Of a DNA stretch of 64,000 bases, positions 28,602 to 61,864 are shown in pieces (positions within the stretch are counted from its first letter, which is position 1; the number at the start of each line of letters is the position of its first letter). A program made the position numbers and the translations under genes. Source of the stretch: Natronosalvus rutilus. Lineage in GTDB: Archaea; Halobacteriota; Halobacteria; Halobacteriales; Natrialbaceae. The notes beneath the pieces were generated by a model that had not been told where the DNA came from, did not search any database, and worked only from the letters and a program-made list of their open reading frames with translations. The stretch covers positions 3,143,451 through 3,207,450 of the forward strand of contig NZ_CP100355.1 of the NCBI RefSeq assembly GCF_024204665.1, given 5' to 3'.

Positions 28602-28864
28602 ACGTTTTCGCCCGTTCTGCGCCTCGCCCCCGTCGTCAATGGATAGCCAACGCGTTCAGCTACGTTCACACCGATGCTCACAGCCACGCTCACGCCTAAA
28701 TCCATACTTCGAGACGATCAATCGCATCCCGAGACTCGAGGTACAGCGCTGGTTGACAGTCTTAGGCACCAAAACGGTGGGGATAGAATTAACTCCCCCC
28801 GGACGGATTCCCAATCAGTTGTGGACCGTGCTGGACCAGCACGGTTCGCGTCCATCACGCATCT
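28602..28864. other. 263-bp leader region of the HEAT-PQQ gene
   Basis: Contains GAATTAAC (about 28785-28792), a TATA-like stretch, and the perfect 21-nt palindrome at 28825-28845 described separately. No coding sequence is evident. Confidence 0.5.
28825..28845 (+). promoter_or_regulatory. Perfect 21-nt palindrome before the HEAT-PQQ gene
   Basis: Arms ACCGTGCTGG (28825-28834) and CCAGCACGGT (28836-28845) flank a single A. It ends 19 nt before the ATG at 28865 and lies downstream of a TATA-like box (~28785), so it would be in the 5' leader or over the transcription start. It can act as a dimer-binding operator or as a leader hairpin controlling translation; the sequence alone does not decide. 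Confidence 0.6.
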
Positions 28865-31800
28865 ATGCCACGAAACGACCCTTCGAACCCGGACGACCCC
28901 GTGCTCGGGGAGCCGGACGACGACCTCGAGGTCACCCTCGGGATCGACCAGTTACAGCTTTTTCTCTCGGCCGACGACCCCGACGTTCGTACGTACGCGG
29001 CCAGCACGCTCGCCGACGAGGCGGCCGATCGACCGCGCGAGGTCTGTTCGGCGGTTCCGGCACTGATCGATCGACTCGAAGACGAACCGTCGGTTCGTTC
29101 CCACGCGACGGCGGCGCTCGCGGCAATCGCCCGGGACCACCCGTCAGAAGTCGAGGCCGCCGTTCCGGCGCTGACCGATCGACTCGAGGGATCGACCGTC
29201 GTCCGCGCCGACGCCGTCGACGCGCTCGCAGCGATCGGTGACGCAGAACCGATGACGTTGCTCGAGTCGGTCGACGCGCTCGCGGCGATCGTCTCCGGCG
29301 AGGACCAGGACGAGGACGAACACGAGGACACGTTCGTCTGCCGGCGAGCGACCGCTGCACTGGCGGCCGTCGCCGACGTCGACCCCGAGGCGGTCAGGCC
29401 CGTGGCAGCCTCGATCGCCGCGGCCGCCGACCACGAGGACGAGGCAGTTCGCGGACACGCCGTACGAGCCCTGCGGGCCGTCGCCGAATCGGACCCGACC
29501 GCGCTCGCCGAGACGACCGACGCCGCCTCGCCCCTGCTCGAGCGACTCGGCGACGACGGAGTGATCCGGGCCGACGCGATGGCCGCACTCCGCGCGCTCG
29601 CGGTCGAAGACGATCCCGCACCGATCACCGTCGAACCCGTCGCGGAACGGCTCGACGACGAGAGCCAGGGTATCCGCGAGGACGCCGCGATCACGCTGAT
29701 GGCGGTCGCAACCGAGACGCCGGAGCGAGCGTCGACCGCACTCGATCCGCTCACGGCGGCGCTCGCTGATGCCCCTTCGATTCGCGAACCGACCATCCGC
29801 GCACTCCGGCACGTCGCCACTGCAGATCCTACGCTGGCGGGCCTCGAGTCGTCCGTTCCGGCCGTCACCGATCGCCTGGCCGACGTCAAGACGGCCGTCC
29901 GAACCGACGCGGCGGCGACCCTGCGCGCCGTCGCCGACGAACGGCCAGCCACCGTTCGGTCGTCGGTCGTCGCGCTCGCTGCCGTTCTCGAAGACGACGC
30001 GATCGAAACCCGCGAACACGCTGCCGCCGCAATCGAGGCCGTCGCCGAAGAACATCCCGACGCCGTTGCGCCCGTCGTGGCGGAGCTCGCGGCTCGCCTC
30101 GAGGACGAGGACGAAGAGGGGACGTCGGTGCGGGCAGACGTCGCTCGAGCCCTGGCCGCCGTCGCGGTGGCCGACCCCGATGCCGTTCGCGTCGTGATTC
30201 CCTCCCTCGCCGCGTGTCTGGACGAGCCGAACGAGTCGGTCAGACGACCGGCTGCCGACGCGCTCGGTGCCGTCGCAAGCGACGGCGACGTCGACCAGGC
30301 GGTCGTCGAACGGTCCCTCGCACGGCTCGAGGAGGAGCGAGGCGACGAGACCGACGCGTGGCGACAGGGCCATGCCGCCCGGTCGCTGGCGGAGGTCGCC
30401 GAGGAGCAGGTCGCGGGCGTCCACCCGGCCGTTCGATCCCTCTCGACCCGACTCGCAGCCGACGCCGTCACCGTTCGGCGAGCGGCCTCCCGCGACCTCG
30501 CCGGCGTCGCCACGGAACGGCCGCGAGACGTCCGTTCGGCCGTCGAACCGCTGGCGGCTCGCCTCGAGGACGACGACGCGAGCGTCCGCAACAACGCCGC
30601 GATCGCCCTCCGGAGACTGGGGGAGGCCTACCCCGAGGACGTCCGGTCGGCGCTGGGCGCGCTGTTCGGATCGGTGGACGACCCCGATCGGACCGTCCGG
30701 ACGAACGTCGTCGCCGCGCTCACCACGATCGGTCCCGACGGCGATCACGTTCGCTCGCCAGCCCGATCACTGGCCGTCGCCGAAACGACCGCCGACGACG
30801 CGACGATTCGAACCGGCGCACTCGAGGCCCTCGGCGTGTTGCTCCCGGAGACCGGCGACGAGACGGCCGTCGTCGTCGACGCCGTCCTCGATCGACTGGC
30901 CGACGACTGTCGACCAGCCGAACGGAGTGCCGCGCTCGAGGCCCTCGAAACCCTCCTCACGAGACCCATCAAGACCGATCCGACGCCGGCCGAGGCGGTT
31001 CTCGACCAGTTCGACGACGGATCGACGGCGAGGACGACCACCCTGGCCCGTTCGCTGGCCGACCTCGCTCGCGTCGATACAGCCATCGTGGAACCGCTCG
31101 CCTCGAGCCTGCTCGAGCGACTGGCGAACGCCGGACGACTCGAACGCCAGGCCCACCTTCGAACCCTCTCGGCCGTCGCCGATGGGTCGGGTCGGTCCGT
31201 CGTGGCGCTCCTCCTCGATCGCCCAGGTGATCGACCGATGGAGGCAGTCGCGGCCGACATCGCAACGCTCGCCGTGGTCGAACCCGAGGCAGTGAGCCAG
31301 AGCGCAGACGCCGTCGCCGACCTCCTCGAGCACGAGACGCCGGCCGTTCGCGGCTACGCGACGCTCTCGCTCGCAACTGTCGCCGTCCTCCAGGACGACT
31401 CGACGCTCGAGACGGAAACCGACGCCGTCGAGGATCGACTGGTCGACGCCGCGTCGCTCGTAGCCGGTGGGGAGACGCCGACGCACACGGACGCGATCAA
31501 CAATCAACTCTCTGGACTCGGCCGCCGCGTCGATGGCGACCCCTGGGCGGCCGGAATCGCAGTGCTGGCGCTGTCGGTGCTCGCCGAGTGCTCCGAGCGG
31601 TTGCGACCCACGGCGATCTCGAAAATCGCCGCCGGACTCGCCGTCGATTCACCCGTGGTTCGGGTTACGGCGGCCCGAACCCTCGCGGCGGTCGCCGAAG
31701 AGGACTCCAACGGGTTCGACTCCAGCGTCTCGGCACTCGTCGACGCGCTCGAGGACGAGGACGACAGCGTTCGAGCGTTCGCGACTCGCACGCTCTCCAC

Positions 31801-33187
31801 ACTGGCGCCTCGCGGGGACGTAGACCTCGCGGAGGCGGTCGACGTCCTCGTCGCTCGACTGGCCGATCCCGATAGCCGCGTCAGGGAACAGGCGTGTCAC
31901 AGCCTCGGGTTCGTGGCCGTCGAGCCGTCGACCCTCGACCCGCTCGGAGCCGATCCGGTTCCGTCCGTCGCCGAGGCGGCCGTGCGGGCACAGAACCGGG
32001 CGACGAGTGCGCGCGAACCAATCGACGACCACGACGATTGGGGCGACTGGAGCGCCGCTCGAGCCGACGCCGCGCGGACCGGGGCCGTTCCCGACGGCAA
32101 CCCGCTCTCGTCGGCAGTCGACGTCCAGTGGCGGTTCGACCCGGACGTGCGAACGGCCGCACCGACCGTCGTCGGCGACACCGTCTACGTCGGCACCGAC
32201 AGCGGTCGCGTGCTGGCGCTCTCGCTCGAGACCGGCGACGAGCGCTGGGGGTATCAGACCGACGGCATCGTGACCGGGTCGCCCGCGGTCGTCGCCGACG
32301 AGGTCTACGCCGCGAGCGCGGACGGGACGGTGTACGCGCTCGACCGGGAGACCGGCGAACGAAGCTGGCAGTACCGGCTGGACGCGACCTGCCGGGTCGC
32401 TCCAGTCGTCGCCGACGGAACTGTCTACGCCGCCGACGACGACGGATCGGTGTACGCTCTCGAGGCCGAATCGGGACGCGTCGAGTGGACGCTCGCGACC
32501 GACGAGACCGCGGCCGTCGCGGAGGTCGCCGTCACCAGCGGTGGCGTCTTCGCCGGAACCACTGACGGCGTCGTTCGACGCATCGACGGTGAAACCGGTT
32601 CGCTCGAGTGGACGCGCGACCTCCAGATAGCGGTCGACGTCGATGGCAACGGTGACGGCGACGTCGACGCTGGCCCAGGCGACGAGAGAACCAACTATAT
32701 AGCCGCCACGGGCGATCTCGTCGTCGCCACGGACGGTGACAGTCTCTACGCCCTCGAGGCGGCCGACGGCACGATTCGCTGGCGATTCGACACCGGCGGC
32801 GCCCTCGAGGCCCCGGCGGTCGCCCACGGCACAGTCTACGTCGCCAGCGGCGATCTGAGCGTGTACGCGGTCGACCTGGTCTCGGGCGCCGAGCGGTTCC
32901 GGTTCGACACCGGTGGCGCGACGCCGACCGCGCCGGCCGTGGTCGACGGCACTTGCTGTGTCGGTACCGACGAGGGGGTCATCTACGCGCTGGATGCGAC
33001 CGACGGCGCGGCCCGGTGGCGATACGACACCGAAACCGGGGCGGCCCTCGAGGGGCTGACGGTCGCGAGCGGCCTGCTGTGTACCGCCGGCCCCGGCGGC
33101 ATCGCCGCCCTCGGCGACGACCAGTCCTCGTGGGCCGATCGCATCGGGTTCTCCGGGCTGTTCACCCGGTTCGGCGCGAACCAGTAG
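28865..33187 (+). CDS. Giant HEAT-repeat protein fused to a PQQ beta-propeller
   Basis: 1440 aa, no signal peptide. Residues ~20-1045 are a run of two dozen or so HEAT units, each ~40 aa, marked by motifs such as VRSHATAALAAIA, VRGHAVRALRAVA, VRTDAAATLRAVA and VRRAASRDLAGVA. From ~1055 (WSAARADAARTG) to 1415 lies a PQQ-type beta-propeller, about seven blades with repeats such as GTVYAADDDGSVYALEAESG. HEAT arrays are elongated protein-binding scaffolds; PQQ repeats form an 8-bladed fold used by quinoprotein dehydrogenases and BamB-like scaffolds, but no quinone-binding or catalytic residues are evident and cytosolic location is implied. A perfect palindrome precedes the start. Function unknown. 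Confidence 0.88.
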   Translation: MPRNDPSNPDDPVLGEPDDDLEVTLGIDQLQLFLSADDPDVRTYAASTLADEAADRPREVCSAVPALIDRLEDEPSVRSHATAALAAIARDHPSEVEAAVPALTDRLEGSTVVRADAVDALAAIGDAEPMTLLESVDALAAIVSGEDQDEDEHEDTFVCRRATAALAAVADVDPEAVRPVAASIAAAADHEDEAVRGHAVRALRAVAESDPTALAETTDAASPLLERLGDDGVIRADAMAALRALAVEDDPAPITVEPVAERLDDESQGIREDAAITLMAVATETPERASTALDPLTAALADAPSIREPTIRALRHVATADPTLAGLESSVPAVTDRLADVKTAVRTDAAATLRAVADERPATVRSSVVALAAVLEDDAIETREHAAAAIEAVAEEHPDAVAPVVAELAARLEDEDEEGTSVRADVARALAAVAVADPDAVRVVIPSLAACLDEPNESVRRPAADALGAVASDGDVDQAVVERSLARLEEERGDETDAWRQGHAARSLAEVAEEQVAGVHPAVRSLSTRLAADAVTVRRAASRDLAGVATERPRDVRSAVEPLAARLEDDDASVRNNAAIALRRLGEAYPEDVRSALGALFGSVDDPDRTVRTNVVAALTTIGPDGDHVRSPARSLAVAETTADDATIRTGALEALGVLLPETGDETAVVVDAVLDRLADDCRPAERSAALEALETLLTRPIKTDPTPAEAVLDQFDDGSTARTTTLARSLADLARVDTAIVEPLASSLLERLANAGRLERQAHLRTLSAVADGSGRSVVALLLDRPGDRPMEAVAADIATLAVVEPEAVSQSADAVADLLEHETPAVRGYATLSLATVAVLQDDSTLETETDAVEDRLVDAASLVAGGETPTHTDAINNQLSGLGRRVDGDPWAAGIAVLALSVLAECSERLRPTAISKIAAGLAVDSPVVRVTAARTLAAVAEEDSNGFDSSVSALVDALEDEDDSVRAFATRTLSTLAPRGDVDLAEAVDVLVARLADPDSRVREQACHSLGFVAVEPSTLDPLGADPVPSVAEAAVRAQNRATSAREPIDDHDDWGDWSAARADAARTGAVPDGNPLSSAVDVQWRFDPDVRTAAPTVVGDTVYVGTDSGRVLALSLETGDERWGYQTDGIVTGSPAVVADEVYAASADGTVYALDRETGERSWQYRLDATCRVAPVVADGTVYAADDDGSVYALEAESGRVEWTLATDETAAVAEVAVTSGGVFAGTTDGVVRRIDGETGSLEWTRDLQIAVDVDGNGDGDVDAGPGDERTNYIAATGDLVVATDGDSLYALEAADGTIRWRFDTGGALEAPAVAHGTVYVASGDLSVYAVDLVSGAERFRFDTGGATPTAPAVVDGTCCVGTDEGVIYALDATDGAARWRYDTETGAALEGLTVASGLLCTAGPGGIAALGDDQSSWADRIGFSGLFTRFGANQ

Positions 33188-33827
33188 TCGTTCTCGAGCC
33201 GTCTCGAGTCCCCGACCGAACAGCGGCCGTTTTCGCGAGGATCAGTATCCAGACGCCGAAGGCGACGGCGGCGACGAACTCTGGAACGGCGAACCAGTGT
33301 CCCGGGTCTGCCGCCGCGGATCGAACGAGGAGCCAGCCGAGCCAGCCGGCCAGGTGGGCGACGCCGAGCCAGATCGACGCGACCGCGATCCACCGATCGC
33401 CGGCCAGCACCTGTCCCGTCCCGGTGAGCAGTTGAGCGATCGGGGCGACGCCGAACACCATCAGCGCGGCGAGGCCGTGCAGGCTCGACTCGAGGTAGTA
33501 CGCCGTGTGTCCGAGGAAGAAGATTCCCACACCGACCATGCCGAGGACGGCGACGCCGGTGAGCACGATGCCGATTCGCTCGAGCCGATTGCGAGCGCCC
33601 GTCCAGAGCAAGGCGACGAACGGTGTACCGAGGAGGCCGCCGAGGATCAGCCCGCCGTTGAAGAGCCAGAAAGTCCGCGCGGTGACTCGGCCCATGTCCG
33701 AGAGCGCGCGCGTTTGCCAGGTGAACGTCTCGGGCGCCGCGACGAACGTCGACAGGACGATTCCGGCCAGCGCGACGTTCGGAGCGGCGACGCCACAGCG
33801 GATCGCCAGCGTCCGGCGATCGGTCAT
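33162..33827 (-). CDS. DUF998 family membrane protein
   Basis: 221 aa, six hydrophobic helices. LSDMGRVTARTFWLFNGGLI near residue 43 matches the DUF998 pattern. The family has no firm biochemical role. Its stop overlaps the 3' end of the HEAT-PQQ gene by 26 nt (convergent), and its start overlaps the upstream surface-protein gene by 4 nt (ATGA), so it is co-transcribed with that gene. Confidence 0.82.
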   Translation of the reverse strand: MTDRRTLAIRCGVAAPNVALAGIVLSTFVAAPETFTWQTRALSDMGRVTARTFWLFNGGLILGGLLGTPFVALLWTGARNRLERIGIVLTGVAVLGMVGVGIFFLGHTAYYLESSLHGLAALMVFGVAPIAQLLTGTGQVLAGDRWIAVASIWLGVAHLAGWLGWLLVRSAAADPGHWFAVPEFVAAVAFGVWILILAKTAAVRSGTRDGSRTTTGSRRTG

Positions 33828-35329
33828 CGCGCACCTCCGGCGAGGACGGCGTCGCGAGCCGTCGATCGTGCGTCCGACAGCGCGTCGCCAGGCGAAGGAC
33901 GCGCCGGCCGTACTGCCGGTTGGGTCGTTTCGGTCACTTCGCTCGAGGACAGGCGTCGACTCGAATCGGCCGACGACGCCGTCGAGTCCCGCTCGTCGAA
34001 CGCGACCTGGACGTCGCCGGTCGCCGAAACCTCCTCGAGGCTCACCGACTCGACGAACGCCTCGTCACCGGCGAACAGGACGAGCGTTTGGTCGTCGGCG
34101 TGCTCGAGGCTGAAGGCGTACGACTCGGTTCGCCAGCGCGTCGTCGTCGGCGTGCGATTCGATGTGTGGGTTCCGGACTCGGCCTCGAGGCTCGTCGCCC
34201 GGCGCTCAAGCGCCGTGGCCATCGCGTCCGTCGCGAGCGAGGCGTTCGATTCGTCCTCGAATCTGATCGCCCAGGCGTAACTGTCGACCTCGTCACCGCT
34301 ACTATCGTCGCCAGCCATGGCCCCGTCATTCGAGATCCGTCGCACGCGATCGTACGACCAGCCAGCGGCAGCGTCTCTCGCCGCGTCCGTGTCGAGTTCC
34401 GTCGCGAGTACCTGCTCGAGGACGAACGACCCAACGACGTCCGTCCCGGTAGGGTCGCTCTCCCAGCCAGCGGATTCGGCGTCGACGCCGACCTCGATCT
34501 CGAACGGTTCGAGTTCGGCCTCGCCCATTGCGATGGCGGGCTCGCCGCGGCGAACCTCCTGCATCGTCACCGGCGGCGTCTCGTAGACGCTCCAGTGGGT
34601 CGCCGGCGAGTCGGCGGCCGCTGCGACGTACCGACCGCCGTGGTGGTACGGCCCCCAGGAAAGCCTGGTTCCCGGGCTGGCGTTCGGATACAGCGACTCG
34701 AGCAGGTCGTCCTCGGGCGTCACGGGCAGGTCGTAGGCCTCGGTGTACGCGCTCGAGACGTAGACGGCGCTTCCCTCGATCAGGCTCGTCACCGTCAGCC
34801 TGGCGTCGGTCGTTCCGCGGTGTTCGGCCGGGATCTCCGCCTGGACTCGTTGCGGGGCTCCTCGCTGGAACTGCGCGGTGTGGACCAGTTCGTGAACGAA
34901 CACCTGTTCGATCTCCGCCGGCGAGGCGTCCGCCTCGGGCAGGAGGTACACCGCCTGCATCGCACTCGAGACGCCACCGACCCGGAGTTCCTCGGCCCCG
35001 TCGGTCGGATCGGGTGCCGGGATTCCCATCACGGCGTAGAAACTCGAGGGGTCCTGGACGGCTCGTGGCGGCCGCTCGATGGGCTCGTCCACGTATACCG
35101 TCGGCGGCCGGAGATCGATTGCAAGGAGCGACTGCACCCGGTCGAACGTCGCGTTCGCGTCGAGGGGCAGGTCTCCGTGGACCTCGAGGGTGCGTTCGCC
35201 GGTCGCGCGGTCGTCACCCGTCGAGCCGTCGACGCTACCCACGTCTGCCATCGGCGCCGCACAGCCGGCGAGCACCACCGACAGCAGTACGACGAGCGTC
35301 GCCATCCGCCGCCCTCCCGACTTCGTCAT
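33824..35329 (-). CDS. Hvo_1808-type surface lipoprotein with metalloprotease motif
   Basis: 501 aa. Signal: MATLVVLLSVVLAGC, a lipobox ending in Cys ~23, then a Gly/Asp linker. Around residue 150 the sequence IEQVFVHELVHTAQFQRG has an HExxH zinc site; the remaining domain matches the haloarchaeal Hvo_1808 family. It is exposed on the cell surface and may be a membrane-anchored peptidase, although the family is uncharacterised. The ATG at 35329 is chosen; a GTG three codons earlier is possible. It is the first gene of the pair with the DUF998 gene (ATGA overlap). Confidence 0.78.
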   Translation of the reverse strand: MTKSGGRRMATLVVLLSVVLAGCAAPMADVGSVDGSTGDDRATGERTLEVHGDLPLDANATFDRVQSLLAIDLRPPTVYVDEPIERPPRAVQDPSSFYAVMGIPAPDPTDGAEELRVGGVSSAMQAVYLLPEADASPAEIEQVFVHELVHTAQFQRGAPQRVQAEIPAEHRGTTDARLTVTSLIEGSAVYVSSAYTEAYDLPVTPEDDLLESLYPNASPGTRLSWGPYHHGGRYVAAAADSPATHWSVYETPPVTMQEVRRGEPAIAMGEAELEPFEIEVGVDAESAGWESDPTGTDVVGSFVLEQVLATELDTDAARDAAAGWSYDRVRRISNDGAMAGDDSSGDEVDSYAWAIRFEDESNASLATDAMATALERRATSLEAESGTHTSNRTPTTTRWRTESYAFSLEHADDQTLVLFAGDEAFVESVSLEEVSATGDVQVAFDERDSTASSADSSRRLSSSEVTETTQPAVRPARPSPGDALSDARSTARDAVLAGGAR

Positions 35330-35407
35330 ACCTGTCACTGTCGATGGACGTCGTATAAATACTCCGGCACCCCAACGGTTTTTCCGTCACCCGCACTCGA
35401 TTTGGCC

Positions 35408-37705: not shown

Positions 37706-39655
37706 ATGGAACCATACAGCGACACCGATGCAGGGGCCGAACTCGACACCACCGCGGACACTACCGAGAACGCGAATGCCCCCGCGAGCGACACGTGGTC
37801 GGCAACCGACGCGAACGAAGAGAGCGGTGCCAACGATGCGACGGCCGCGGGCCTCGAGGACGCCGGAAATGTCGGAATCGCCGAGGATGCCGGGAGCGGC
37901 GGGAACGCCGGAACCGACGAAATCCCCTCGGACGTCGATGACGACGCGACACACCCTCCCGACTCGACGCTCGAGTTCACATTCGACCAGATTCGGCGCA
38001 CGCTACGTCGAGTAGTCGACGTACTGCAGGGCTCTCACATCGACGTGACGGCCTACGATCCTGCGGCGCATGGCCCGCTCGTCACGTTCGACGACGCGGA
38101 CGACCTCGAGGAAGTCGATCGCTACTGGGTGAACGCCCCCTTCTCGTTCGTCGTGATCCAGTACGACGAGGCGGCCAACCACCACCGCTACCGAACGGTC
38201 GAACCCATCCTCACCGACGAGGAACGACTCGTGCTCGAGACGCTGCTCGAGGACGTGCGCGATCCGCTCCTCTACCGACAGACGGACGACGAAGACGTGG
38301 AGGAACTGCTTCGATCCACCGTCCGCGAGTACCTCGAACGCTACGGCGCCGAGGTCGACATGGCGACGTTCTACCGGCTCTTCTACTACATCTTCAGGGA
38401 CTTCCGGGGATACGGACGGCTCGACCCGATCATGCACGACCCCCACGTCGAGGACGTCTCCTGTGACGGGTACGACCTCCCCATCTTCGTCTACCACGGC
38501 CAGTACACGGACGTCGAGACCGACGTCAGCTTCGGCGAGGACGAACTCGATCGGTTCGTCGTCCGCCTCGCCCAGCACTCCGGGCGCCACATCTCCATCG
38601 GCGACCCGATGGTCGAGACGACCCTCGAGGACGGCTCCCGGGCGGAACTCGCCCTCGGAACGGAGGTCACGCCGCGCGGGTCGGCGTTCACTATCCGGAA
38701 GTACGCCGATGAACCGCTCACGCCGGTCGACCTCGTTCGGTACGGGACGTTCAGCGTCGAGCAGATGGCCTACCTCTGGCTGGCCATCGAGCACAACAAG
38801 AGCCTGCTCTTCGCCGGCGGGACCGCCTCGGGGAAGACGACGAGCATGAACGCCATCTCGATGTTCGTCCCGCCGCGCTCGAAGGTCCTCACCATCGAGG
38901 ACACCCGCGAACTCCAGTTGCACCACGACAACTGGCTCTCCTCGGTCACTCGCGAGCGCATCCACGAGGGAAAGAACGTCACCATGTACGACCTCCTGCG
39001 GTCGGCCCTTCGCCACCGCCCCGAGTACATCGTCGTGGGGGAGGTTCGCGGCGAGGAGGCCATCACGCTCTTCCAGGCGATGAACACCGGCCACACGACC
39101 TACTCGACGATGCACGCCGACTCCGTGCAAACGGTCATCAACCGCCTCGAGAACGAGCCGATCAACGTGCCCCGGGCGATGGTCCAGAGCCTGGACATCC
39201 TCTCGGTGCAGACGCTCACCAGGCTCGGCGGCGAGCGCGTCCGGCGGAACAAGGTCTTCGCAGAGATCGAGGGCATCGACCAGCGAACCGGCGAACTGGA
39301 CTACTCCACCGCCTACTCCTGGGACGGCGAGACGGACACGTTCACCGCCGAAACCAGCCACGTCGTGGCCGAGATTCAACACGAACGCGGGTGGACCCAG
39401 CGGGAACTCCTGACCGAACGACGCAACCGGGAACGATTCCTCGAGTACGCGCTCGAACACGAGATTTCGGACTACCGACGATTCACGGCGCTCGTCAACG
39501 AGTACTACGCCGACCAGGAACGCGTACTCGAGCGGATCGAGGACGCGAGCGAGAACAGCGAAACTGAGGGCAGGGAAACCGAGAGCGACGAAAACAAGAA
39601 CGACACGGACGCGACACCACCGAACCGACCGGGCGACTCGCTCGAGACGAACTGA
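37706..39655 (+). CDS. pilB: Type IV pilus assembly ATPase
   Basis: 649 aa. An acidic N-terminal ~75 residues precede a type II/IV secretion ATPase core: Walker A FAGGTASGKTTSMNAIS near residue 370, Walker B / Asp-box VLTIEDTRELQLHHDN near 394, VVGEVRGEEAITLFQAMNTG near 443 and the conserved MHADSVQTVINRLE near 471. It hydrolyses ATP to drive pilin polymerisation at the membrane. Its partner PilC follows 28 nt later. No pilin or prepilin peptidase gene is nearby, so pilins are encoded elsewhere. The C-terminus is a charged low-complexity tail. Confidence 0.92.
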   Translation: MEPYSDTDAGAELDTTADTTENANAPASDTWSATDANEESGANDATAAGLEDAGNVGIAEDAGSGGNAGTDEIPSDVDDDATHPPDSTLEFTFDQIRRTLRRVVDVLQGSHIDVTAYDPAAHGPLVTFDDADDLEEVDRYWVNAPFSFVVIQYDEAANHHRYRTVEPILTDEERLVLETLLEDVRDPLLYRQTDDEDVEELLRSTVREYLERYGAEVDMATFYRLFYYIFRDFRGYGRLDPIMHDPHVEDVSCDGYDLPIFVYHGQYTDVETDVSFGEDELDRFVVRLAQHSGRHISIGDPMVETTLEDGSRAELALGTEVTPRGSAFTIRKYADEPLTPVDLVRYGTFSVEQMAYLWLAIEHNKSLLFAGGTASGKTTSMNAISMFVPPRSKVLTIEDTRELQLHHDNWLSSVTRERIHEGKNVTMYDLLRSALRHRPEYIVVGEVRGEEAITLFQAMNTGHTTYSTMHADSVQTVINRLENEPINVPRAMVQSLDILSVQTLTRLGGERVRRNKVFAEIEGIDQRTGELDYSTAYSWDGETDTFTAETSHVVAEIQHERGWTQRELLTERRNRERFLEYALEHEISDYRRFTALVNEYYADQERVLERIEDASENSETEGRETESDENKNDTDATPPNRPGDSLETN

Positions 39656-39683
39656 CACGGAGAGATCGACCGCATCCACAACC

Positions 39684-41762
39684 ATGACCCGCGCAAACTT
39701 CCTCCCGCTCGCGTTCGCGGTCGTTCTCTGTTCGCCGATCCTGCTTGCGGCCGTCAACCGGGGGGTCGACACCCTCCTCGCCCGGATGGCGGACCGGTTC
39801 TTCGGCCCCTACGTCGAGGAGTTCAGGTCCGAACACCCCGGAAGACAGGACGCGCTTCGAGCGGCACACATCCCGACCACCTACCGCGAGTACGGGGCGA
39901 AGTCCCTCCTCTACGCCGGCCTGCTCGCCGTCGTCGGCAGTATTCTCGGCATCTACGTCAGCTGGGGACTCCTGCTCGTCCTCTCGATCGAACCCGCGGT
40001 GATGCGCGAGCAGCTGCCGGGTGCGCTCTTCTTTCTCGCGAACGTCGCCGGCATCCCGGCGCTCTCGGCGCTCGAGTTATTCGGGCTCCTGCTCGTCTCC
40101 TGTCTGACCCTCGGGGTGCTCGCCGGCGTCGGCACCTACTGGTTCCGGTGGTGGTACCCGGGCTACGTCGCCGACAACCGCGCACGACGGATCGAGTACA
40201 CCCTGCCATCGACCGTCGCGTTCATTTACGCTCTCTCACAGAGCGGGATGGAGTTCCCCACGGTCGTCCGTATCGTCGCCGCTCACGACGACACCTATGG
40301 GGAGGCCGCGAGCGAGTTTCGCGTCGCCGTCCGGAACATGGACACCTTCGGGACGGACGTGATCACGGCGCTGCAGACGATGAACCGACGTTCCCCGAGC
40401 CCCCAGTTCCGCGAGTTCTCCGAGAACCTGATCAGTGTCCTCAAGAGCGGCCACAGCCTCTCGTCGTTCCTCGAGCGCCAGTATCATGACTACCAGGAGG
40501 AGTCGGAGTCCCAGCAAGAACGCATGCTCGACTTGCTCGGTACGCTCGCGGAGTCGTACGTCACCGTCCTCGTCGCCGGGCCGCTGTTTCTCATCACGAT
40601 CCTGTTCGTCATCGGCATCTCCGTCGGCGACACCCTCGGCCCCATGCGGGGGTTGATCTACGTCATCCTGCCGTTTGGCAACCTGGCCTTCATCGTCTAC
40701 TTGAGCATGGTTACCGACTCGGTCAACCCCGGCCGAACGATCAACGAGGGCGACGTCGACGACCCGGGACCGTACCAGCAGGCCCTCGCCCAAACCGACG
40801 GTGGATTCCGAAATGACACCCCGCCGAACGTCGAGCGAATTCACATCTACAAGCGTCTCCGAGCGGTTCGAGAGCGACTGGGATCCCCGCTCGAGACGCT
40901 ACTCGAGCGGCCGGCACGCTCGCTCCTGGTGACGGGGCCGGTCGCGCTCGGGTTGATCGCCTGGCGACTCCCCGAGGCGACGACCGAGACCGGAATCGAC
41001 GCGGCCGTCATCGACGATGTCCTGGTCGTCGCCGGCCTCCTCGTGGGCACCACGTTCGCCGTCCTGTATGCGATTCACCGGCGGCGGGTCGACGCCGTCG
41101 AAGCGGCCATCCCCGACTTCCTCGACCGCCTTGCGAGCGTCAACGAGGCCGGGGTGGCGCTCGTTTCGGCGATCGGTCGCCTTCGCGAGTCGGACCTCGG
41201 CGCGCTCGACGTCGAACTCGAGCGCATCTGGGCGGACGTCCAGTGGGGGGCCGACCTCGAGACGGCGCTGGTCCGGTTCGGTGCGCGAGTTCGGACGCGG
41301 GCGGCTTCCCGCGTCGTGACGCTCCTGACGGAGGCGATGAACGCCAGCGGGAACCTCGCCACCGTGTTGCGAATCGCCGCCCGGCAGGCCGCGGCCGACC
41401 GGCGGCTCAAGCGCGCCCGCCAGCAGGCGATGCTCGAGTACATGGTCGTCGTCTACATCTCGTTTCTCGTCTTCCTGTTCATCATCGCCGTCCTAGCAGG
41501 CTACATGCTCCCGACGCTCCAGGCGGCCGCCGTCGAGGGCGGCGGCGAGTCGCTCGAGGCGTCCCAGGTCGACGGGCTGTCGGGGCTCGGGAACGTCGAT
41601 GCTTCGACGTACACGCTCCTGTTCTACCACGCGACGCTCATTCAGGGGGCGCTCTCGGGGCTGATCGCCGGGCAGTTGAGTACAGGAGACCTGAAAGCCG
41701 GGGTGAAACACGCCGTGGCGATGGTCGCGCTCTCGTTCGTGCTGTTCGTGGTCGTTATTTGA
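39684..41762 (+). CDS. pilC: Type IV pilus assembly membrane protein
   Basis: 692 aa. Two GspF-type domains with membrane helices at roughly 5-25, 74-100, 120-150, 290-330, 410-465 and 580-615. Halves correspond to YALSQSGMEFPTVVRIVAAH (~180) and LASVNEAGVALVSAIGRLRE (~480), the repeated F-domain starts. The C-terminal part has FLVFLFIIAVLAGYMLP near 595. As platform protein it recruits the ATPase and pilins. It is longer than bacterial PilC, as usual for archaeal PilC. Confidence 0.92.
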   Translation: MTRANFLPLAFAVVLCSPILLAAVNRGVDTLLARMADRFFGPYVEEFRSEHPGRQDALRAAHIPTTYREYGAKSLLYAGLLAVVGSILGIYVSWGLLLVLSIEPAVMREQLPGALFFLANVAGIPALSALELFGLLLVSCLTLGVLAGVGTYWFRWWYPGYVADNRARRIEYTLPSTVAFIYALSQSGMEFPTVVRIVAAHDDTYGEAASEFRVAVRNMDTFGTDVITALQTMNRRSPSPQFREFSENLISVLKSGHSLSSFLERQYHDYQEESESQQERMLDLLGTLAESYVTVLVAGPLFLITILFVIGISVGDTLGPMRGLIYVILPFGNLAFIVYLSMVTDSVNPGRTINEGDVDDPGPYQQALAQTDGGFRNDTPPNVERIHIYKRLRAVRERLGSPLETLLERPARSLLVTGPVALGLIAWRLPEATTETGIDAAVIDDVLVVAGLLVGTTFAVLYAIHRRRVDAVEAAIPDFLDRLASVNEAGVALVSAIGRLRESDLGALDVELERIWADVQWGADLETALVRFGARVRTRAASRVVTLLTEAMNASGNLATVLRIAARQAAADRRLKRARQQAMLEYMVVVYISFLVFLFIIAVLAGYMLPTLQAAAVEGGGESLEASQVDGLSGLGNVDASTYTLLFYHATLIQGALSGLIAGQLSTGDLKAGVKHAVAMVALSFVLFVVVI

Positions 41763-59377: not shown

Positions 59378-61864
59378 GTGGAGCTAATTATCACGGAGAA
59401 GGACAACGCGGCGAGACGTATCGCGGACATTCTGAGCGGCGAGTCTGCCGACGCGACCCGCGAAAACGGCGTGAACGTCTACGAGTGGGGCGGCAAGCGC
59501 TGCGTCGGGCTGTCGGGCCACGTCGTCGGCGTCGACTTCCCGCCGGAGTACTCGGACTGGCGTGACGTCGAACCCGTCGAACTCGTCGACGCCTCGATCG
59601 AGAAGACGCCCACGAAGGAGAACATCGTCGCGACGCTTCGTATCCTGGCCCGCCAGGGCGACCGCGTGACCATCGCGACCGACTACGACCGCGAGGGCGA
59701 ACTCATCGGCAAGGAAGCCTACGAGATCGTTCGCGAGGTCAACGAGGAGGTTCCGATCGACCGCGTTCGATTCTCCTCGATCACCGAAAACGAAGTCCAG
59801 AGTGCGTTCGCCGAACCCGACGAGATTGACTTCGACCTGGCCGCGGCGGGCGAGGCGCGCCAGATCATCGACCTGGTCTGGGGAGCCGCGCTCACCCGGT
59901 TTCTCTCGCTGTCGTCGGGCCAGCTCGGCAATGACTTCATCTCCGTCGGGCGAGTCCAGAGCCCCACCCTCAAGCTAATTGTCGACCGCGAGCGGGAGAT
60001 CGAGGCCTTCGACCCCGAGACCTACTGGGAGCTGTTCGCCGACCTGATCAAGGATGACGACCCGTTCGAGGCCCAGTACTTCTACCTCGACGAGGACGAC
60101 AACGAGGCCGAACGCGTCTGGGAGGAATCGGCGGCCGAGGGCGCCTACGAGACGCTCTCGAGTGCCGACTCGGCGACGGTCACGTCGGTCAACGCACGAA
60201 CGCGGACGGACACACCGCCGGCGCCGTTCAACACGACGCAGTTCATCCGCGCGGCGAGCGCCATCGGCTTCTCCGCGAAGCGGGCCATGTCCATCGCGGA
60301 GGACCTCTACACCGCCGGCTACATCACCTACCCTCGGACTGATAACACCGTTTACCCCGACGACCTCGAGGCCGAGGAACTGCTCGATTCGTTCGTCGGT
60401 CACCCAGTCCTGGGCGAGTCCGCCGAAGACTTGCTCGAGGGCGACGGCGACCTTGTTCCCACGGAGGGCGACGAGGAGACGACCGACCACCCGCCGATCC
60501 ATCCAACCGGCGAGATTCCAGCCCGCGGCGGAGACGTCGACGAGGACGAGTGGCGGGTCTACGAACTGGTCGTCCGTCGGTACTACGCGACGGTCGCCGA
60601 GCCGGCGATCTGGGAGCACCTCAAGGTGGTCGCCGAGGCCGACGGCCGTCAGCTCAAGGCCAACGGCAAGCGACTCGTCGAAGCGGGCTACCACGACGTC
60701 TACCCGTACTTCAATACCTCCGAGAACTACGTCCCCGCCGTCGAGGAGGGCGAGGAACTCGCCATCGGCGACGTCGAACTCGAGGAGAAGGAGACCCAGC
60801 CACCGCGGCGATACGGCCAGTCACGCCTCATCGAGACCATGGAGGACCTCGGTATCGGAACGAAGAGTACCCGACACAACACCCTCGAGAAGCTCTACGA
60901 CCGGGGGTACATCGAGAACGACCCACCACGACCGACCCAGCTTGCCATGGCGGTCGTCGACGCCGCGGAGAACTACGCCGACCGCGTCGTCAGTGAGGAG
61001 ATGACGGCCCAGCTCGAAGCCGACATGGACGCCATCGCGACGGGCGAGGCCACCCTCGAGGACGTCACGGACGAATCCCGCGAGATGCTCGAGGCCGTCT
61101 TCGAGCAGCTGCGGGCCTCCCGCGACGAGGTCGGCGATCACCTCCGTAAGTCGCTGAAGGCAGACAAGCGACTCGGTCCGTGCCCCGACTGTGGCGAGGA
61201 CCTGCTCGTTCGTCGGAGTCGCTACGGCTCGTACTTCGTCGGCTGCGACGGCTACCCCGACTGCGAGTTTACCCTGCCGCTCCCCTCGACGGGCAAGCCC
61301 CTGATCCTCGAGGAGACCTGCGACGACCACGACCTTCACGAGGTGAAGATGCTCGCCGGGCGACAGACGTTCGTCCACGGCTGTCCGCTCTGCAAGGCCG
61401 AGGAGGCCGGCGAGGGGCCGGTGCTGGGTGCGTGTCCCGATTGTGGTGAGGAACACGGCGGCGAACTCGCGATCAAGACGCTCCAGAACGGCTCCCGGCT
61501 GGTCGGCTGTACCCGCTACCCCGACTGCGAGTACTCCCTGCCCCTCCCGCGCCGGGGGGACATCGAGGTCACCGACGAGCGCTGTGACGAACACGACCTG
61601 CCCGAACTCGTCGTCCACAACGGCGACGAGCCCTGGGAACTGGGCTGCCCCATCTGTAACTACCGCGAGTTCCAGGCTCGAGAGGCCGAGAGCGGGTCGG
61701 CCCTGGAGTCGATCGAAGGAATCGGCGCGAAGACCGTCGAAAAACTCACCGCGGCCGGGATCGAGTCGATCGACGACTTGCTCGAGGCCGATCCGGAGTC
61801 GCTCGCCAGCACGGTCGAGGGCGTGAGCGAGGATCGCGTCCGGACCTGGCAGACGGCGGCCTGA
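59378..61864 (+). CDS. topA: DNA topoisomerase I
   Basis: 828 aa. TOPRIM domain: ELIITEKDNAARRIA at the start and TDYDREGELIGKEA near residue 107; active-site Tyr in AGYITYPRTDNT near 315. The C-terminal part has zinc-finger pairs (CPDCGEDLL near 605, CDGYPDCEF near 627, and CPDCGEEHGG near 685, CTRYPDCEY near 708), then a helix-hairpin-helix (SIEGIGAKTVEKLTAAG near 774). It relaxes negative supercoils. GTG start is supported by the ribosome site at 59364-59371. Confidence 0.95.
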   Translation: MELIITEKDNAARRIADILSGESADATRENGVNVYEWGGKRCVGLSGHVVGVDFPPEYSDWRDVEPVELVDASIEKTPTKENIVATLRILARQGDRVTIATDYDREGELIGKEAYEIVREVNEEVPIDRVRFSSITENEVQSAFAEPDEIDFDLAAAGEARQIIDLVWGAALTRFLSLSSGQLGNDFISVGRVQSPTLKLIVDREREIEAFDPETYWELFADLIKDDDPFEAQYFYLDEDDNEAERVWEESAAEGAYETLSSADSATVTSVNARTRTDTPPAPFNTTQFIRAASAIGFSAKRAMSIAEDLYTAGYITYPRTDNTVYPDDLEAEELLDSFVGHPVLGESAEDLLEGDGDLVPTEGDEETTDHPPIHPTGEIPARGGDVDEDEWRVYELVVRRYYATVAEPAIWEHLKVVAEADGRQLKANGKRLVEAGYHDVYPYFNTSENYVPAVEEGEELAIGDVELEEKETQPPRRYGQSRLIETMEDLGIGTKSTRHNTLEKLYDRGYIENDPPRPTQLAMAVVDAAENYADRVVSEEMTAQLEADMDAIATGEATLEDVTDESREMLEAVFEQLRASRDEVGDHLRKSLKADKRLGPCPDCGEDLLVRRSRYGSYFVGCDGYPDCEFTLPLPSTGKPLILEETCDDHDLHEVKMLAGRQTFVHGCPLCKAEEAGEGPVLGACPDCGEEHGGELAIKTLQNGSRLVGCTRYPDCEYSLPLPRRGDIEVTDERCDEHDLPELVVHNGDEPWELGCPICNYREFQAREAESGSALESIEGIGAKTVEKLTAAGIESIDDLLEADPESLASTVEGVSEDRVRTWQTAA

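Follow-up and report, generated by a model that had tools for sequence, protein, structure and literature searches.

A HEAT-solenoid and PQQ-propeller protein of the Natrialbaceae: a candidate cytosolic scaffold with a conserved tail and upstream region

A 64,000-nucleotide stretch of Natronosalvus rutilus DNA (NCBI RefSeq assembly GCF_024204665.1, contig NZ_CP100355.1, positions 3,143,451 to 3,207,450; hereafter the window, with coordinates counted from its first letter) contains a gene at 28865–33187 on the + strand that encodes a 1440-residue protein, referred to here as HEAT-PQQ, in which a long array of HEAT-like repeats is followed by a PQQ-type beta-propeller. We propose, with middling confidence, that HEAT-PQQ is a cytosolic, non-enzymatic scaffold whose solenoid binds a client and whose C-terminal tail docks the whole, made from its own promoter with a leader hairpin; the scaffold is perhaps membrane-peripheral. 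Three features appear to be new: a conserved segment at residues 856–920, a conserved amphipathic tail, and a private regulatory region with an upstream box and a hairpin. No description of a HEAT-PQQ fusion was found in the literature searched.

Domain organization

The gene is a single open frame from its ATG start, and the protein matches Pfam PQQ_2 (E=1.3e-43, 149.7 bits against a cut-off of 27.6) and, in 10 stretches, HEAT_2 (E=9.7e-36, 122 bits against a cut-off of 27.7). An earlier note made from the letters alone had described HEAT-like units and a propeller of about seven blades in one uninterrupted frame and had suggested structure prediction; AlphaFold2 models of the parts, built on native alignments, agree with both domains, and the blade count is corrected to eight from the strand pattern, with the last blade closed by the N-terminal strand of the propeller. 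The alpha-solenoid spans residues 27–1049 (28943–32011), with 59 helices that make up ~27 HEAT-like units at a mean predicted local distance difference test score (pLDDT) of 88.4. A linker at residues 1050–1085 (32012–32119) is mostly disordered in the model, with pLDDT values of 24–40 at residues 1051–1079, and leads into the propeller at residues 1086–1417 (32120–33115; mean pLDDT 82.8).

Within the propeller there is a disordered acidic loop of the VDVDGNGDGDVDAGPGDE type at residues 1255–1275 (32627–32689). This Asp/Gly-rich segment, DVDGNGDGDVDAGPGD, resembles a calcium-binding loop and is restricted to the window species and its two closest relatives. The protein as a whole is strongly acidic, with an isoelectric point (pI) of ~4.1–4.3. 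Elsewhere in the same genome, outside the window (G000:C1:3527104-3530868), an open frame of ~3420 residues contains several PQQ-propeller stretches.

Two trivial explanations of the architecture can be rejected. Orthologues keep both the length and the domain order, which rules out a frame error that had fused two genes. A signal peptide hidden further upstream is dismissed because the frame is closed by a stop 25 codons ahead of the ATG and the 24 intervening codons contain no other ATG; the start methionine is invariant in 20 orthologues, and the hydrophilic N-terminus has no signal peptide, as had been claimed from the sequence. The further claim that no enzyme motif is visible also held, in that a profile search of the protein gave no enzyme family above its own cut-off. 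Since there is no signal peptide and no such enzyme family, and both domains are of a binding type, a cytosolic non-enzymatic platform fits.

Distribution and inheritance

HEAT-PQQ orthologues of ~1400–1490 residues are present in 37 of 125 Natrialbaceae genomes, in 6 of 29 genera; named carriers include Natronosalvus, Natronorubrum, Natrinema, Natronolimnohabitans, and Haloterrigena, and most of the 8 Natronosalvus genomes have close relatives of the same length. A search for other haloarchaeal fusions, also suggested in the earlier note, used a profile of residues 640–1440 on a sample of 117 genomes from the order. Full-profile matches were limited to the Natrialbaceae, and genomes from other families matched through the propeller alone. 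Homologues are many, and none was found with an assigned function, which answers only in part the earlier concern that many homologues of assigned function might already exist.

Some copies within the family are broken, with a stop and broken matches in G031 and matches that end early in G033, G108, and G114, and this fragmentation fits a dispensable gene. The gene tree of HEAT-PQQ shares 11 of 16 splits with that of topA, which encodes DNA topoisomerase I, and no record from a plasmid reaches 80% coverage of the protein. HEAT-PQQ is a chromosomal gene of the Natrialbaceae that has been inherited vertically and lost repeatedly, and it is not part of a defence island. Mobile or plasmid-borne carriage was considered and rejected on the splits in common with topA, the lack of a plasmid record, and a fixed, topA-linked place.

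Selective constraint and the C-terminal tail

Orthologues of HEAT-PQQ are under purifying selection. The ratio of nonsynonymous to synonymous substitution rates (dN/dS) is ~0.27–0.33 for the whole gene and drops to 0.06–0.15 in residues 856–920; the value for topA, comparing the window with G007 of the same genus, is ~0.08. A conservation profile has its maxima at residues 21–80, 861–920, and 1421–1440. The first of these is an N-terminal cap (28925–29104) with the invariant columns EVTxGIxxLxxFLxADDPxVRxYAAxTLA. The second falls in the most constrained HEAT segment, residues 856–920 (31430–31624), which is a non-canonical HEAT unit with the loop GGETPxHTD and W894.

The third maximum is in the C-terminal tail, residues 1418–1440 (33116–33184), with the amphipathic stretch GFSGLFTRFG; residues 1419–1440 are disordered in the AlphaFold2 model. 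The tail, of the form W..SISGLFTRFG, is among the most conserved stretches of the protein though predicted to be disordered; its hydrophobic residues are spaced at i, i+3, i+4, and i+7, with conservative exchanges among F, L, V, and I. It is amphipathic in 20 of 20 aligned orthologues; among the 12 named ones, some have a degenerate version. In each of the 20 orthologues the hydrophobic moment (0.52–0.66) ranks in the top 4% of shuffles; the values come from the best 11-mer and are flattered by that choice. Sharing of the tail motif with other proteins of the window genome was considered and rejected, there being one other DNA match, at no evident protein end. The last codons of the conserved tail (33162–33187) are overlapped by a convergent DUF998 gene (33162–33827, − strand).

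These properties suggest a docking role for the tail, as a helix that would attach to a membrane or to a partner protein. A PCNA-binding (PIP) motif was considered and set aside, as the conserved Gln and the aromatic pair of such motifs are missing. By analogy with FtsA and MinD, a narrower form of the scaffold proposal would have the tail as a true membrane-targeting sequence and HEAT-PQQ as a membrane-peripheral scaffold of the envelope or division apparatus. The high conservation of a segment predicted to be disordered, with its i, i+3/4, i+7 hydrophobic spacing, is what such a sequence would look like, and membrane binding by a C-terminal amphipathic helix is established in FtsA (PMC8187382). 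Against this, the helix is short, at ~10 residues of which one or two are basic, the tails of a few orthologues are degenerate, sequence cannot show membrane binding, and a protein-binding peptide would look identical. We regard this specific version as doubtful, at perhaps half the standing of the broader scaffold proposal.

Upstream box and leader hairpin

A near-invariant box, GGGATAGAATTAACT, lies upstream of HEAT-PQQ at 28780–28794 on the + strand and is a candidate core promoter. The box TAGAATTAACT or a one-base variant is present upstream of the gene in all of the first 20 loci, in DNA that otherwise diverges around it, and a targeted scan found it in 36 of 37 loci with no more than 2 mismatches, 70–89 bp before the start codon. 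The window genome has one exact copy and one single-mismatch copy, compared with one match for a reversed-pattern control, and genomes that lack HEAT-PQQ have only chance-like 2-mismatch matches and no recognizable remnant. Because the exact box occurs once in the genome, a role as a regulon site is rejected and it appears to be a private promoter element.

Between the box and the start codon there is an inverted repeat whose sequence varies and whose place is fixed ~28 nt before the ATG. In the window this is TGTGGACCGTGCTGGACCAGCACGGTTCGCG (28820–28850, + strand), containing a 19-bp palindrome at 28826–28844, and the leader folds at a z-score of −2.9. For 16 representatives, which are related to one another, the best stem scores 20.6, where dinucleotide shuffles give 14.9 (0 of 200; z 8.3), and its position is spread over 7 nt compared with 14 nt. 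The signal is null in four controls, namely two upstream stretches, the topA leader, and the first 70 nt of coding sequence. The overall folding energy of the leaders is weakly below that of shuffles, with a mean z of −1.0 compared with −0.64 upstream, and the case for a hairpin is accordingly made from the inverted repeat itself, a local feature, and from the constancy of its place. In the alignable subset there is one doubly changed pair, so that covariation is not above shuffles (144 of 500), and the leader has just a chance-level match in Rfam (20 bits compared with a gathering score of 90). We read the inverted repeat as a leader hairpin that may regulate HEAT-PQQ synthesis; it could instead be a DNA palindrome. 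Many haloarchaeal transcripts are leaderless.

Linkage to topA and the surrounding genes

The ancestral upstream neighbour of HEAT-PQQ is topA (59378–61864 in the window, + strand; identified by Pfam Topoisom_bac and synteny), which encodes a protein of 826–847 residues in the loci examined. When the three closest genomes are set aside, it lies upstream on the same strand in 18 of 18 such loci, within ~3.3 kb; 13 are directly adjacent, and five have one or two inserted genes. In the window genome, G002, and G003 the two genes are separated, by ~26 kb in the window. The gene order of G007 (topA, HEAT-PQQ, DUF998, a lipoprotein-like gene, DUF5793, PilB3) suggests how the window arrangement arose. 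The 504-residue product of the lipoprotein-like gene (33824–35338) has the N-terminus VLLSVVLAGCAAP and no confident Pfam family, and the gene adjoins HEAT-PQQ and DUF998 in four Natronosalvus genomes. At 37706–41762 a PilB3-type secretion ATPase and a T2SSF (PilC-like) membrane protein form a type IV pilus pair, which is near HEAT-PQQ only in Natronosalvus genomes.

The constancy of this neighbourhood raises the question of whether HEAT-PQQ works with topoisomerase I or on the chromosome, with the HEAT array forming a condensin-like or topoisomerase-associated platform, and the HEAT profile does also match Cnd1-type HEAT families. The gene is intact ~26 kb from topA in the clade of the window, other genes intervene at five loci, and HEAT-PQQ has its own conserved promoter box. 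All genomes without HEAT-PQQ retain topA, many with the same flanking families after it, and tblastn searches behind topA in these genomes gave no HEAT-PQQ remnants. The low pI does not favor a chromosomal role either, though most haloarchaeal proteins are likewise acidic. As HEAT-PQQ survives away from topA and has retained its own box, the linkage is most simply explained by shared ancestry, which can account for it alone, and we consider a functional partnership with topoisomerase I improbable.

The fixed topA-linked place of HEAT-PQQ and the empty sites in non-carriers argue against both a strict operon partner and a mobile defence island. The idea that the protein serves a defence or conflict system as an intracellular sensor or recruiter, its repeats recognizing an invader product, draws on the common use of HEAT and propeller repeats as superstructure-forming parts of such systems (PMC7159879) and on PADLOC matches that are weak, with OloA at 34.7 bits and HEAT-ARM_XIII at 27 bits. 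These matches are partial and cover the HEAT repeats only, HEAT-PQQ has no effector or NTPase domain, and among ten neighbours checked there is no defence protein other than an ordinary, generic ABC ATPase that cross-matches. HEAT-PQQ is not assigned to either of the two known anti-phage systems, given the weak partial matches and the lack of a partner among those neighbours. With a fixed chromosomal place, vertical inheritance, and no plasmid copies, a defence role seems very unlikely. The suggestion of the earlier note that the fusion could form a cytosolic platform for a regulatory or defence complex thus survives as to the platform, and its defence part does not, given the fixed locus, the topA-congruent tree, and the absence of plasmid copies.

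Structural likenesses

The best Foldseek match of the propeller is BamB (E=4e-19, target-normalized TM-score ~0.8). BamB (YfgL), a scaffold in bacterial outer-membrane assembly, is likewise an eight-bladed PQQ-type propeller without a known cofactor and acts as a protein-binding platform; it differs in being a secreted periplasmic lipoprotein, whereas here the propeller follows a 1000-residue HEAT array in a cytosolic protein, and identity is ~20%. HEAT-PQQ is not classed as a BamB equivalog, as TIGR03300 gives 144.8 bits compared with a cut-off of 285.2 and there is no signal peptide. The closest folds and profiles of the solenoid are CAND1, karyopherins, and PP2A-A, with TM-scores of ~0.2 over the full length and 12–15% identity; these have the repeat type and global shape in common with it, and nothing further, and lack a propeller.

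In Raptor and Vps15, which are scaffolds of eukaryotes, the HEAT solenoid likewise precedes a propeller placed close to the C-terminus. The order of parts is that of HEAT-PQQ, with no sequence relation shown; the Raptor and Vps15 blades are WD40 rather than PQQ, and these proteins carry additional kinase- or caspase-like domains that HEAT-PQQ lacks. AfsK-type kinases similarly use a PQQ propeller as a sensor or binding module, and differ in having the kinase domain. Halo_adaptin proteins, which are ESCRT-associated in haloarchaea, use WD40/PQQ-like propellers, probably for cargo binding (PMC10936438). In these proteins, which are encoded in ESCRT loci, the propeller stands at the N-terminus and is joined to Ig-like domains, without a HEAT part, and no ESCRT genes were identified among the annotated HEAT-PQQ neighbours.

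A quinoprotein-type, PQQ-dependent dehydrogenase minus its signal peptide is suggested by an eight-bladed PQQ-family propeller and by profile matches to PQQ dehydrogenases, and can scarcely be credited: these matches are partial and far below the curated cut-offs (TIGR03075, 71.7 compared with 480 bits; TIGR03074, 45.9 compared with 833 bits), the best structural match, BamB, binds no PQQ, the genome has no PqqC match in a search for which no control genome matched either, and the PQQ dehydrogenases known so far work outside the cytoplasm.

A scaffold role and its implications

The scaffold proposal draws in part on the closest folds, which are protein-binding scaffolds: BamB for the propeller and, in global shape only, CAND1 and karyopherins for the solenoid. 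In the mechanism that we envisage, the long, flexible HEAT solenoid would hold a client, most likely through the cap at residues 21–80 and the non-canonical unit at residues 856–920. The flexible linker would join it to the BamB-type propeller, which could offer a second protein-binding face, and the C-terminal segment, if it folds as the predicted amphipathic helix, would dock the assembly onto a membrane or a partner protein. HEAT-PQQ would be transcribed from its own promoter with the leader hairpin, and would not be co-transcribed with topA.

Several points weigh against this proposal. The predicted template modelling score of the model is just 0.53–0.56, such that the relative arrangement of the domains is not fixed, and the sequence of the tail does not fix its target as membrane or protein. 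HEAT and propeller folds also serve other roles, and the conserved topA neighbourhood could still mean a shared function.

A more ambitious form of the scaffold proposal would have HEAT-PQQ as a lineage-specific, membrane-docked cytosolic HEAT-propeller scaffold that organizes a haloarchaeal complex much as eukaryotic ones do, made under the control of a previously undescribed structured mRNA leader whose hairpin changes in sequence yet stays paired and in position; as a joint claim this is a long shot. The conserved leader is the most testable lead, and we did not find it described in the literature searched. Proteins that combine alpha-solenoids and propellers are building blocks of eukaryotic scaffolds, and a giant cytosolic scaffold kept vertically in an archaeal family would, if the proposal is true, provide a genetically tractable case outside the eukaryotes. 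The promoter box and leader hairpin would offer a concrete, testable example of a leadered haloarchaeal mRNA with a structural element.

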